Assembly (NCBI GenBank): GCA_018457135.1 | Contig: JAGGDU010000042.1 | Location: 1-51,066 of the forward strand | Direction: 5' to 3' | Length of the DNA: 51,066 nucleotides | Source of the DNA: Trichodesmium erythraeum GBRTRLIN201 | GTDB taxonomy: Bacteria > Cyanobacteriota > Cyanobacteriia > Cyanobacteriales > Microcoleaceae | Shown here: positions 12,513 through 15,617 of the stretch, piece after piece | Layout: the number at the start of each line of letters is the position of its first letter | How positions within the stretch are numbered: the first letter of the stretch is position 1 | Notes under the pieces: generated by a model | What the model was told of the DNA's origin: nothing | Databases searched by the model: none | What the model saw: only the letters and a program-made list of their open reading frames with translations | Position numbers and translations under genes: made by a program

Positions 12513-12623
12513 TCAACTCAATGAAAGAGTGTATAATTTCATCACATCTTTAATGGCCATTCGAGAATTGGCTCCTAAGTTCAGGGATGAAATATGGCCT
12601 CGACTAAGATGGTCAGCCGCAGC
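12513..12623 (-). CDS. tsaD: tsaD exon 2: C-terminal 36 residues of TsaD
   Basis: The 111 bases immediately past the intron's 3' end read AADHLSRGHISSLNLGANS, then RMAI and a short tail, and end in TGA. This is the C-terminus expected of cyanobacterial TsaD after TDNAAMIGC. The frame is exactly in register: exon 1 ends on a complete Cys codon and exon 2 begins with a complete Ala codon (GCT). Joining the two gives a 355-residue protein, normal for the family. No start codon or ribosome-binding site of its own is expected. Without splicing this segment would not be translated with TsaD. Confidence 0.9.
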   Translation of the reverse strand, partial: AAADHLSRGHISSLNLGANSRMAIKDVMKLYTLSLS

Positions 12624-12713
12624 GTTAAACTCAACAAGCCTATTTCCAGATTACCCTTTATAAGGCCTGTTGGTCTTCAAAACCGTGCGTGAGACTTTCA
12701 CCTCACACGGCTT
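12624..12713 (-). ncRNA. Intron domains V and VI with branch point
   Basis: Domain V is the 34-base stem AAGCCGTGTGAG-GTGAAAG-TCTCACGCACGGTTT on the minus strand, with the catalytic AGC triad and GNRA-like GTGAAAG tip. Domain VI follows: arms CAACAGGCCT and AGGCTTGTTG around an AT-rich loop. The adenosine opposite 12631, eight bases from the 3' end in TTGA-GTTTAAC, is the expected bulged branch-point A. The intron ends in AC as usual. These features set the 3' splice site at 12624/12623. Confidence 0.88.
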
Positions 12714-12775
12714 CTCTCCTAGGCGTCCCTTTCTATGGGTACATCCCTGCTTTCTAGTATCACCATATCGTCTAT

Positions 12776-14062
12776 CTATTGATAGCCTTCTGATAAGTCA
12801 GGTTTTTCTTTTAGCCTTTTGGCTGCCTAGTCTTCCCTGTCTAGTGCAGTTTTAGTATCGTGACAATGTCGGTGCAACACTTGTTGATTTTTTTATGTGT
12901 CACTAGCGCTTTCAGACCTGAGAAAAATTTGGTCTATATCAATTAAATCTGTCGGTCTGAATTTTCATCTACAAAATGTGCATTTACCTTTTTGTATTTT
13001 CAACAGCGTTGAAACTTCTTTCCTCATACCTAGGTGCTTTGGTGATTCTATTACTCCAATAATTCTAATCCCCGTCATGGACTTGGTATCTTTTTGGAAT
13101 GAGAATAAAATAAAGCCGGAGAAAATTAATGACACTCAATATATTTTTCAGGCACAAACTACAAATTTCGGGTCTTATTTAATGTACGTTCCTTAGCTTA
13201 GTGTATTTAACTATAAGTACATCTGAGTGTTTATTTAACGTATATTTCCCATCCGAACTGAATCTAATTTCTGAACTCTCTTGTGGGAAAATACTTTTTT
13301 TTGCCCAGGTAGCGGACTTATTCAGATCCCAATAGTCTTGCCCATTGACCTAGCCTTTTCTACAAGAGATAGTCTACTTTAGTATATATTTCTTGACTGA
13401 CTAGAGCTGAGTAATAGTTAGCTGCTGCTCTGATTAATGGATTTAGTTTAGTTACTAAGGCTGAAACTGGGGCATATTTGTGAGAATCACAAATATCTGC
13501 TAATTTCCGGTAATAAATACTTAGTTTTAAATTCTAGCTTGGCTGAATTAACCTCGTATTACCTCACTTCAAATGCTAAGAAATAAAGTCCGAGTTGATT
13601 TCCTTGGTATTCCTTGAGTGTTTGGCCAATCTTGGTTTTTTCTGGTTTGAGTTTTAATCCTATTTGCTTCAAGCATTCCTTTATTAAGGTTTTAGCTTTT
13701 AGTGCTACATTGAGATATTTGTGAAATTTGGTGGCAGGCTTTTTCTGACATTTATCCCCGTAGTTCTTTAGCCCTGATTCTCCTGAGTTAATGGTCTAAG
13801 AGTCAACAGCCTTGCGTCATAGCTTTTGGTTAAAAGTTTTTGGTGTTTACACATTTTGCGGATTTCGCCACGGCCGGATGCTTTGTAAATTAACTTTTAC
13901 AACTTGAACACATTATTCAATGGCCAAATGCCTGTCTATGTCTTTCCATTTAAAGTTGGGGTTGACATCTAATTGATTAGATATATTGTATGTATTCCAT
14001 GCCACACTTAAATAGGGCTCTGAATTATTCAGTCTTCTCTTTAGTGTTTTAGCTTTATTCAT
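12776..14062 (-). pseudogene. Decayed intron-encoded reverse transcriptase/maturase/HNH protein
   Basis: Fragments in several frames match the usual order of a group II intron protein. First is an N-terminal segment with NPNFKWKDIDRHLAIE from an ATG at 14062, then LLTKSYDARLL..PLTQENQG near 13770-13840 (start of the RT domain). Next come AKTLIKECLKQIGLKLKPEK and a GQTLKEYQGNQLG piece near 13600-13735 (end of RT), and KYAPVSALVTKLNPLIRAAA near 13430-13490 (maturase X domain). Last are KGKCTFCR and LHRHCHDTKTAL near 12850-12990 (HNH endonuclease). The RT core with the catalytic YxDD is missing, and stops and frameshifts interrupt the rest. The gene cannot make a working protein. About 429 codons remain of roughly 600. 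Confidence 0.9.
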
Positions 14063-14297
14063 TGCTAGTAATTATTTTACATTACGTCTAAAAGTGGGTA
14101 CGTCAGCATTCCTGCTTTTTACCCAATCCTACTCTCTCTAAGACCTACGTCCAAAATGCGTAGATTAACCTTGAATGGCTTCCTAAGTTCTTGAGCGATA
14201 TTCTTAGGTGTATTAGAGAGGTTTTCTCGTTCCCTTATGCCTTTGTTGCGTCTGATTTAGCGGGGTAAAGTCTCCCGGAGGGCGCATTATTGTTGTT

Positions 14298-14323
14298 GAC
14301 AATATCGGTTGCATAATACTGTC
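14298..14323 (-). other. Candidate EBS1 hairpin of the intron
   Basis: Stem GACAGTAT/ATATTGTC (seven Watson-Crick pairs and one G-T) closes a 10-base loop TATGCAACCG. The loop's GCAACC can pair with the exon's last six bases GGTTGT (five normal pairs plus a terminal wobble). This is the expected EBS1-IBS1 contact, about 350 bases into the intron as in other group II introns, and it supports the 5' splice site at 14661/14660. Confidence 0.75.
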
Positions 14324-14660
14324 CATTGACCCCCTGGCTGGTCAGCCCTACACCCATGACTACCTTAGCGGGTGGTTGATGATTACGAGAGTTTTATTAC
14401 CTTCCTGTTCGTCCGCTTGTCAGACTCTGCTAGCAGAGTTTACTTCTGGTAGTTGAAGTTGTCCCGCATTTAGACCAGCTTCAGGGATTGATGTTCATTC
14501 GCTACCCTGTGGTCTATGCTGTCAGCCCAACAACGAGGCGGTAGGAATTTCACCTACAAGGTCATAAGAGTTATCCATAAATCTGAGGTTGTCTTCATCT
14601 GTTGATTTAGGACGGCCATTTCTACCTAAATATCTGGTCTTAGTGGCCAACGAGCCGCAC

Positions 14661-15617
14661 ACAACCTATCATGGCTGCATTATCCGTACAAAATCTGAGT
14701 GAGGGAAATAGTACTTGCAAGTTATGACTTTCTACTGCTCTACTTAAGTGCTGTCGCAAACTACTATTAGCTGCTACACCACCGCCAATAGCAATTGTGT
14801 TTAAGCTATAGTCTAATGCACAAGCGATAGCTCTTTTTGTTAGCCCTTTTGCTACAGTTTCTTGAAAGCTGGCTGCAATGTCTTTAGTTACTGAAGACCC
14901 TGATAATAATTCATTACCTTCTTGTTCTATTTTCTGGACTAATCGCAATACTGCAGTTTTGAGTCCACTGAAACTAAAATCATAAGGATGATAGCCTCCT
15001 CCAGGCAAAGAAATTTTCCCTTCAGGGAGAGAAAATGCTAATTTATTACCCTCTGCAGCTAATTTATCAATTACAGGTCCACCGGGATAGCCAAGTTTTA
15101 ATAATCTAGCTACTTTGTCAAAAGCTTCTCCTGCTGCATCATCTCTTGTTTGCCCTAAAGTTTCATATTCCCCACAATTTTTGACATAAATCAAACTGGT
15201 ATGACCTCCAGAAACTAACAAACAAAGAAAAGGTGGTACTAACTCGGGTTGGCTTAGGTAGGTTGCATAAATATGACCTTCTAAGTGATGGACTCCCACA
15301 AAGGGCTTTTCATGGACAATAGCTAAGGTTTTGGCCGCCGTCAGGCCAACTAACAGAGCGCCAACTAGACCAGGGGCGCAAGTAGCTCCAATACCATCAA
15401 TGTCTGGCCAGTCTAAATTTGCTTCTCTGAAAGCTTGAGCGATCGCCTGATTAATTATTTCTAAATGTTGTCGTGAAGCTACCTCTGGAACTACTCCTCC
15501 ATAAAAGCTATGGATATTAATTTGTGACTTCACAATGTTACTTAAAACTTGACGATTTTTAACAATTGCCACAGATGTTTCATCACAACTTGTTTCTATA
15601 GCTAAAACCGTTGTCAT
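14661..15617 (-). CDS. tsaD: tsaD exon 1: tRNA threonylcarbamoyladenosine transferase, residues 1-319
   Basis: TsaD (Gcp/YgjD) transfers the threonylcarbamoyl group to A37 of ANN-reading tRNAs and is essential in most bacteria. The start chosen is ATG at 15617, giving [15 protein letters not shown], the conserved opening; an in-frame ATG 66 bases upstream would add an unusual leader. Metal-binding H111 and H115 lie in HLEGH, followed by VSGGHT (135-140), [11 protein letters not shown] (163-173), FSFSGLKTA (214-222) and TDNAAMIGC (311-319, with the metal Asp D312). The exon ends after a whole Cys codon at 14661. If the intron is not removed, translation reads five odd residues and stops at 14640, losing the last 36. 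The 5' half of the t6A pathway, tsaC, is also in this window. Confidence 0.92.

Follow-up and report, generated by a model that had tools for sequence, protein, structure and literature searches.

In the cyanobacterium Trichodesmium erythraeum GBRTRLIN201, tsaD, a near-universal translation gene involved in tRNA modification, is interrupted by a group II intron. The gene lies on contig JAGGDU010000042.1 of assembly GCA_018457135.1, whose positions 1 to 51,066 (forward strand) were analysed and are called the window here. The interruption is confirmed to the base and is far beyond chance. We consider it very likely that tsaD is an intron-containing housekeeping gene whose transcript is spliced, with help in trans, to a normal TsaD.

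The tsaD gene is split by a group II intron

All parts of the gene are on the minus strand. Exon 1 (14661 to 15617) comprises 319 codons from the ATG at 15617 and ends in TDNAAMIGC. It is followed by the intron (12624 to 14660; 2037 nt, GTGCG...TTTAAC), which starts at 14660 with GTGCGGCTCG, and by exon 2 (12513 to 12623), which consists of 36 codons and a stop. Translation of 12623-12513 yields AAADHLSRGHISSLNLGANSRMAIKDVMKLYTLSLS. When the exons are joined, the product has 355 residues, the normal size of TsaD, and an alignment with the uninterrupted TsaD of ten relatives showed that the complete C-terminus is restored. In this alignment the junction (MIGC+AAADHL) is free of gaps, and realignment of nine of the relatives gave the same result.

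Exon 1 alone is recognized as TsaD by the equivalog model TIGR03723 (422 bits, cut-off 296.1) and scores 327.1 bits against PF00814. Its reading frame continues six codons into the intron, adding VRLVGH, and then ends. A reading of the window from sequence alone (the sequence-only reading) had proposed that a group II intron splits tsaD and that the second exon follows downstream in frame, and this is borne out by the translation, by Rfam and by the alignment of relatives. Its count of 36 codons plus stop for exon 2 was reproduced on recounting; in the C-terminal sequence that it had written out, one A was omitted.

Ribozyme structure and splice sites

The intron has the ends expected of a group II intron (GUGYG at the 5' end, AY at the 3' end), namely GTGCG at 14660 and TTTAAC at 12624. 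Domain V (12678 to 12716, boundary set by hand) is recognized by Rfam RF04357 (12716-12676; 58 bits, gathering threshold 53) and RF00029, and it is conserved in 15 aligned copies. The RF00029 match covers domains V and VI (12715-12624; 54.3 bits, gathering threshold 40) and ends exactly at the last nucleotide of the intron. In the predicted fold of domain VI (12624 to 12677) the A at 12631 is left unpaired; it stands at position -8 relative to the 3' splice site and is the predicted branch point. Folding of the domain V/VI region gave -34.5 kcal/mol compared to -19.6 +/- 3.1 for shuffled sequences (z -4.8), with the A at -8 unpaired.

The intron belongs to a large family. The genome contains 76 places that match its DNA, counting the intron itself. 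Among the other copies the best-scoring one shows 78% identity over 933 nt, and short pieces reach 91%; in genomes of the same genus the best-scoring copies among the matches listed are 78-81% identical. Motif searches for sister introns covered 20 fetched regions and the window. GTGCG was the 5' end in 20 of the 23 starts detected, and TTTAAC followed domain V in 16 of 18 copies, in both cases with the tsaD intron included. Fifteen of these 18 domain V/VI copies (all except those in contig C146 at 11091, in C203 at 929 and in C232) were compared with the structure predicted for the tsaD intron. Standard pairs were kept in 94.3% of cells, and 34 cells were changed on both sides compared to 10.3 +/- 2.6 in shuffles. 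The domain VI helix also shows compensatory changes, with 89.9% of cells paired.

The 5' parts of 21 of the 23 introns were aligned; C178 and C70, with about 200 nt each at contig ends, were omitted. Two variable stretches are complementary to the adjoining exon and qualify as exon-binding sites (EBS). In the tsaD intron, EBS1 (GCAACC, 14307 to 14312), which lies in a variable loop of the 5' part of the intron, pairs with intron-binding site (IBS) 1 at the end of exon 1 (GGTTGT, 14661 to 14666). EBS2 (ATCAT, 14379 to 14383), a variable stretch that co-varies with the exon, pairs with IBS2 (ATGAT, 14668 to 14672). With their own exons the 21 introns reached a summed pairing of 280 for EBS1-IBS1, compared to 172.0 +/- 10.6 (maximum 213) when exons were shuffled, and of 249 for EBS2-IBS2, compared to 172.9 +/- 9.0 (maximum 201). 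None of 500 shuffles attained the own-exon scores. The EBS windows were chosen after viewing the alignment, and identical windows were used in the shuffle control. A placement of EBS2 at the conserved GTCATGG, read by eye, was rejected because this stretch is alike in copies with different exons whereas the variable ATCAT co-varies.

Domain V, domain VI with its predicted bulged A, the consensus ends and EBS that co-vary with the exons are the reasons why the tsaD intron looks like a ribozyme able to splice.

A decayed maturase and probable help in trans

The intron carries the relic of an intron-encoded reverse transcriptase (RT)/maturase (12701 to 14062, minus strand). In tblastn searches with sister proteins the matches to it were fragmentary, covering residues 1-42, 51-111, 307-374, 371-462 and parts of 450-635, with shifting frames and stops. 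The RT core, about residues 112-306 of 635, is missing, and a profile search found no RVT_1 match on the contig that carries the intron. Thus the intact RT/maturase of a mobile group II intron is lacking. With its RT core gone and its frames broken, the tsaD intron reads as a splicing-only derivative.

Four sister introns elsewhere in the genome have retained open reading frames (ORFs), on contigs C203 (635 aa), C134 (554 aa), C146 (589 aa) and C9 (666 aa). All four match RVT_1 and the maturase domain (GIIM), and three also match HNH. According to PMC4649490, 17 T. erythraeum introns are spliced in vivo, ten of them without an ORF, and help in trans was demonstrated in E. coli. Because the intron's own maturase is wrecked, four sisters keep RT and maturase ORFs, and there is this precedent, it is likely that tsaD splicing is helped in trans by the protein of a sister intron.

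The process could be as follows. The tsaD pre-mRNA would fold the 2037-nt ribozyme, in which EBS1 and EBS2 would hold the end of exon 1. The predicted bulged A of domain VI would then attack the 5' splice site, and the exons would be joined in frame to encode the 355-residue TsaD, a subunit of the N6-threonylcarbamoyladenosine (t6A) transferase. With the intron's own maturase dead, the protein of a sister intron would aid these steps.

Copy number of tsaD and distribution of the insertion

The assembly (7.22 Mb, 241 contigs) is 99.97% complete. A PF00814 search of it gave two matches, the split tsaD and a partial 54-bit match on contig C31, which we take to be a putative tsaB. With the spliced TsaD as the query only exons 1 and 2 were matched. 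The sequence-only reading had named a second intact tsaD as a point to be checked; none was found in the assembly by either the profile or the spliced protein, and a spare copy there was rejected on these grounds.

Among 40 genomes (relatives and the own genome), 37 have a tsaD match. In 35 of the other 36, tsaD runs past the junction point to the C-terminus; the exception is G010, where it stops at residue 290 (see below). Four of the 35 have one TAG inside the match, which was verified as the terminal stop in one of them (G002). All five other genomes of the same genus with a tsaD match have an intact gene. The exact junction pattern, with no mismatch allowed, occurred in one of 388 genomes of the order, the Trichodesmium genome under study, and an insertion shared with other species was therefore rejected. 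A general collection of genome contigs, from which records of the own genome or near ones were possibly excluded, contained no stretch with the pattern, again with no mismatch allowed.

In genomes at least 90% complete, tsaD was matched in 385 of 389, and among the best-scoring matches listed the break at the junction occurred only in the own genome. Twenty-three of the 389 were re-examined together with G006: all those, apart from the own genome, that had no match or more than one, and six of those whose single match was among the weakest. In 11 of the 23 tsaD is full length, in six it ends at a contig edge, in G359 it lies on two contigs, in G297 it forms overlapping frames with stops, and four gave no match. 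G006 had no tsaD match on re-examination either. Relatives lacking the intron had been suggested as the comparison to make; none of the other genomes searched was found to carry the intron at this site. The insertion is thus private to the T. erythraeum genome within the genomes searched.

Two tsaD loci had an unusual layout of their own. In the two-contig genome G297 (C1:481980-483018) tsaD appears as two overlapping matches with stops, which could be a frameshift, a duplication or another interruption. In G154 (C25:247499-250458) a full-length tsaD is followed by two more stretches that resemble the TsaD C-terminus (query residues 301-351, 57% identical; 303-351, 55% identical).

Exon constraint and probable dependence on splicing

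The rate of nonsynonymous substitution (dN) and its ratio to the synonymous rate (dN/dS) were determined for both exons against the eight closest relatives. Exon 1 had a dN of 0.04-0.06 and a dN/dS of 0.07-0.13. When compared with nine relatives, the core of exon 2 (31 codons) has no private residue and two private synonymous codons; exon 1 (314 codons compared) has five private residues and 24 private codons. The core of exon 2 is consistent with constraint, though not proof of it; as it lacks private residues, we judge it very probable that splicing is functional.

The likely role of exon 2 in the protein was examined in the AlphaFold model of an uninterrupted TsaD, that of Microseira wollei (alignment A2, with 20 of 22 candidate rows; mean predicted local distance difference test score, pLDDT, 93.9). 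In this model the helix 310-322 contains the junction point, which follows C315. Exon 2 corresponds to the second half of this predicted helix and to the last helix, and the pLDDT is 95-98 up to about residue 340, after which it drops. According to the model, loss of exon 2 would cut the helix in half.

Several results weigh against functional splicing. The EBS2-IBS2 pairing has just 5 bp, and two dnaN exons fit the tsaD EBS2 no less well. In four of the 15 copies the domain VI helix has broken pairs at its base. Whole exon 2 had a dN of 0.06-0.15 and a dN/dS of 0.13-0.37, above those of exon 1. Zero private changes in 31 codons are weak when taken alone, as the rate in exon 1 predicts only about 0.5. 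Finally, the PF00814 and TIGR00329 matches stop near the junction, and therefore even a truncated protein would be scored as a TsaD. The dN excess of exon 2 we ascribe mostly to its tail, because the part past MKLY is variable in all eight relatives and many pairs of relatives also have a higher dN there than in exon 1; the exon is short and gives this comparison little power.

The PF00814 and TIGR00329 matches that stop near the junction, the dN/dS of whole exon 2 and the end of the exon 1 frame six codons into the intron would all fit a situation in which no splicing occurs, a truncated TsaD (319 residues plus VRLVGH) is functional and exon 2 is a fossil. Yet the exon 2 core keeps only residues that are also found in relatives, the exon supplies half of a confidently predicted helix and the last helix, EBS/IBS and domain VI look intact, and nearly all other tsaD-bearing genomes among the 40 (35 of 36) continue through the junction to the C-terminus. 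We regard a functional truncated TsaD as very unlikely. Just as improbable in our view is a mixture of alleles, in which some chromosome copies carry an intronless tsaD and splicing is not required. About 100 chromosome copies are given for T. erythraeum IMS101 in PMC8919778, and a draft assembly displays a single allele. However, only the intron allele was assembled, and a disused exon 2 should decay, whereas its core, short as it is, has no private residue.

The sequence-only reading had further proposed that dependence on splicing could make t6A modification respond to conditions, in which case the intron would be a regulatory switch. Splicing probably needs factors made elsewhere, which would leave room for regulation, but nothing specific points to such a role. 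The junction pattern in a single genome of the 388 of the order and the intact tsaD in the five others of the genus with a tsaD match are what would be expected of a recent selfish insertion rather than of a switch that has been kept. We consider the switch slightly less probable still than the two preceding alternatives.

A further proposal of the sequence-only reading was that growth depends on splicing. As no second intact copy was found, the intron site is private and the exons look constrained, this dependence is the best reading. According to PMC5013485, tsaD belongs to the small group of tRNA-modification genes that did not prove dispensable in E. coli; by analogy, the gene would be essential in T. 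erythraeum as well.

A second interruption of tsaD in the same family

In G010, an 85% complete genome of another genus of the same family, tsaD runs to AANSSLRQ, i. e. to about residue 290 (G010:C322, locus L061:1-1954). Two nucleotides past this point GTGCGACTCGTTCTCC begins, and then comes an open frame of 177 codons that extends to the contig end. Over 158-175 residues it shares 33-48% identity with RT frames in T. erythraeum intron regions, with shorter matches as well, and the interruption looks like another group II intron. At this codon most relatives have CAC or CAT, with which the two nucleotides (TA) disagree, and the boundary is therefore approximate. Rfam found no domain V in this piece, as would follow from a contig that breaks off within the intron, and a search for the tsaD 3' exon in G010 did not find it.

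The two interruptions share their position inside tsaD, the sequence GTGCGACTCG, seen likewise where the related introns begin, and an RT-like frame behind it. They differ in the site, in the intron sequence and in the RT frame, which in G010 is open to the contig end. Apparently tsaD has been invaded twice, at different sites and independently; the second case is incomplete.

Related introns in other genes

Names of the other host genes were read from translated flanks, except that ruvA was tested as a protein and the guaB-like gene by TIGR01304. The 3' ends for C203, C203p, C60, C13 and C27 are rough and were not used as exons. A gene with dnaN flanks is split in phase by four related introns of 978-1835 nt (C19:954-6818), none with an RVT_1 match. 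In C171, thyX is split in phase by a related intron and has, further on, an intein-like sequence; nrdJ in C146 is split in phase by two such introns, again followed by an intein-like sequence in the same gene. Genes for GH24-type lysozymes in C134 and C46 are also split in phase by related introns.

In ruvA (C205:18526-20619) two pieces of one gene flank a related intron, again in phase. The gene was found in 23 of 24 genomes; it is uninterrupted in 21 and split at the same site in the T. erythraeum genome and in G001. Because G001 shares the ruvA split yet has an intact tsaD, the tsaD insertion is probably younger than that in ruvA, unless G001 has lost the tsaD intron. According to PMC5101192, ruvA is duplicated in T. 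erythraeum. This duplication may be the two pieces of the intron-split gene.

Profile searches found no RVT_1 in the introns of dnaN, thyX, C46, C134a and C146b and just a 21.5-bit piece in that of ruvA. With the G010 RT as the query, tblastn detected short matches in the regions of C19 and C171 as well; hence some sister introns are relics rather than ORF-less from the start.

A guaB-like gene is divided between contigs C203 and C172, the latter of which opens with the end of a domain V/VI, immediately followed by the 3' exon. A trans-split gene was set aside here, as the domain V/VI end at the start of C172 is explained more simply by an assembly break in a repeat. On C203 two intron 3' ends face each other, which may be due to an assembly break or a rearrangement.

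The twintron gene Tery_4732 was recovered at C176:1324-6714. The Tery_4732+ protein (PMC4649490) is 100% identical over its first 80 residues; eight of its last nine residues match further along C176, the first of the nine being the codon split by the intron. The RT frame of 449 codons equals the 449-aa host-intron protein of that paper, and the exon distance of 5124 nt equals its splice coordinates (7263622 minus 7258498). The inner frame runs for 491 codons without a stop (437 when counted from its first ATG), compared to 489 aa in PMC4649490. These matches agree with the assignment of the genome to T. erythraeum.

A possible interpretation, for which we would stop just short of calling it probable, is that a small set of sister proteins splices one whole intron family, with members in tsaD, ruvA, dnaN (four introns), thyX, nrdJ (two) and the guaB-like gene, most of which have no functional maturase themselves. 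If this is true, replication, repair and translation would all depend on a retroelement maturase as an essential, general splicing factor, and a bacterial parallel would exist to the transition by which self-splicing introns came to use a common splicing machinery. In that case tsaD would be a target to which introns return, with two independent hits in the family.

Comparison with known systems

An intron in tsaD is surprising for bacteria at large and in line with what is known of T. erythraeum, for which splicing in vivo and help in trans have already been published. The notion in the sequence-only reading that bacterial group II introns avoid such genes thus applies in general (PMC4424553), but T. 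erythraeum is a known exception (PMC4649490). The latter paper cites T. erythraeum introns in ribonucleotide reductase, in thyX and in the Tery_4732 twintron (Liu 2003, Liu 2004, Meng 2005, Pfreundt 2014). Its main text has no tsaD, gcp, glycoprotease, endopeptidase or t6A; the tsaD intron may still figure among the 17 spliced introns of 2014. The literature found for 'group II intron' and 'tsaD', as far as consulted, does not describe it, which is no proof of absence.

The housekeeping-gene introns of PMC4649490 resemble the tsaD intron in that they occur in the same species, are ORF-less or ORF-degenerate, lie in protein genes and, for similar introns, are helped in trans. DNA-level relatives of the tsaD intron sit in what read as thyX and nrdJ of the genome studied here. 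The difference is the host gene, tsaD. Hence a near-universal translation gene is added to the Trichodesmium housekeeping genes that seemingly need splicing. There is also a caution for annotation, since split genes such as ruvA may be called truncated or duplicated.

The tsaD intron appears to be caught at the splicing-only stage, with a competent-looking RNA, a dead maturase and sisters able to serve, and would be a testable system for the growing reliance of introns on shared helpers. In this respect it resembles the ORF-less or degenerate introns of organelles (PMC4424553), which are likewise splicing-only, have no working intron-encoded protein and lie in conserved genes. Unlike these, the tsaD intron resides on a bacterial chromosome, and its likely helper is the protein of another intron rather than a nuclear factor of the host.

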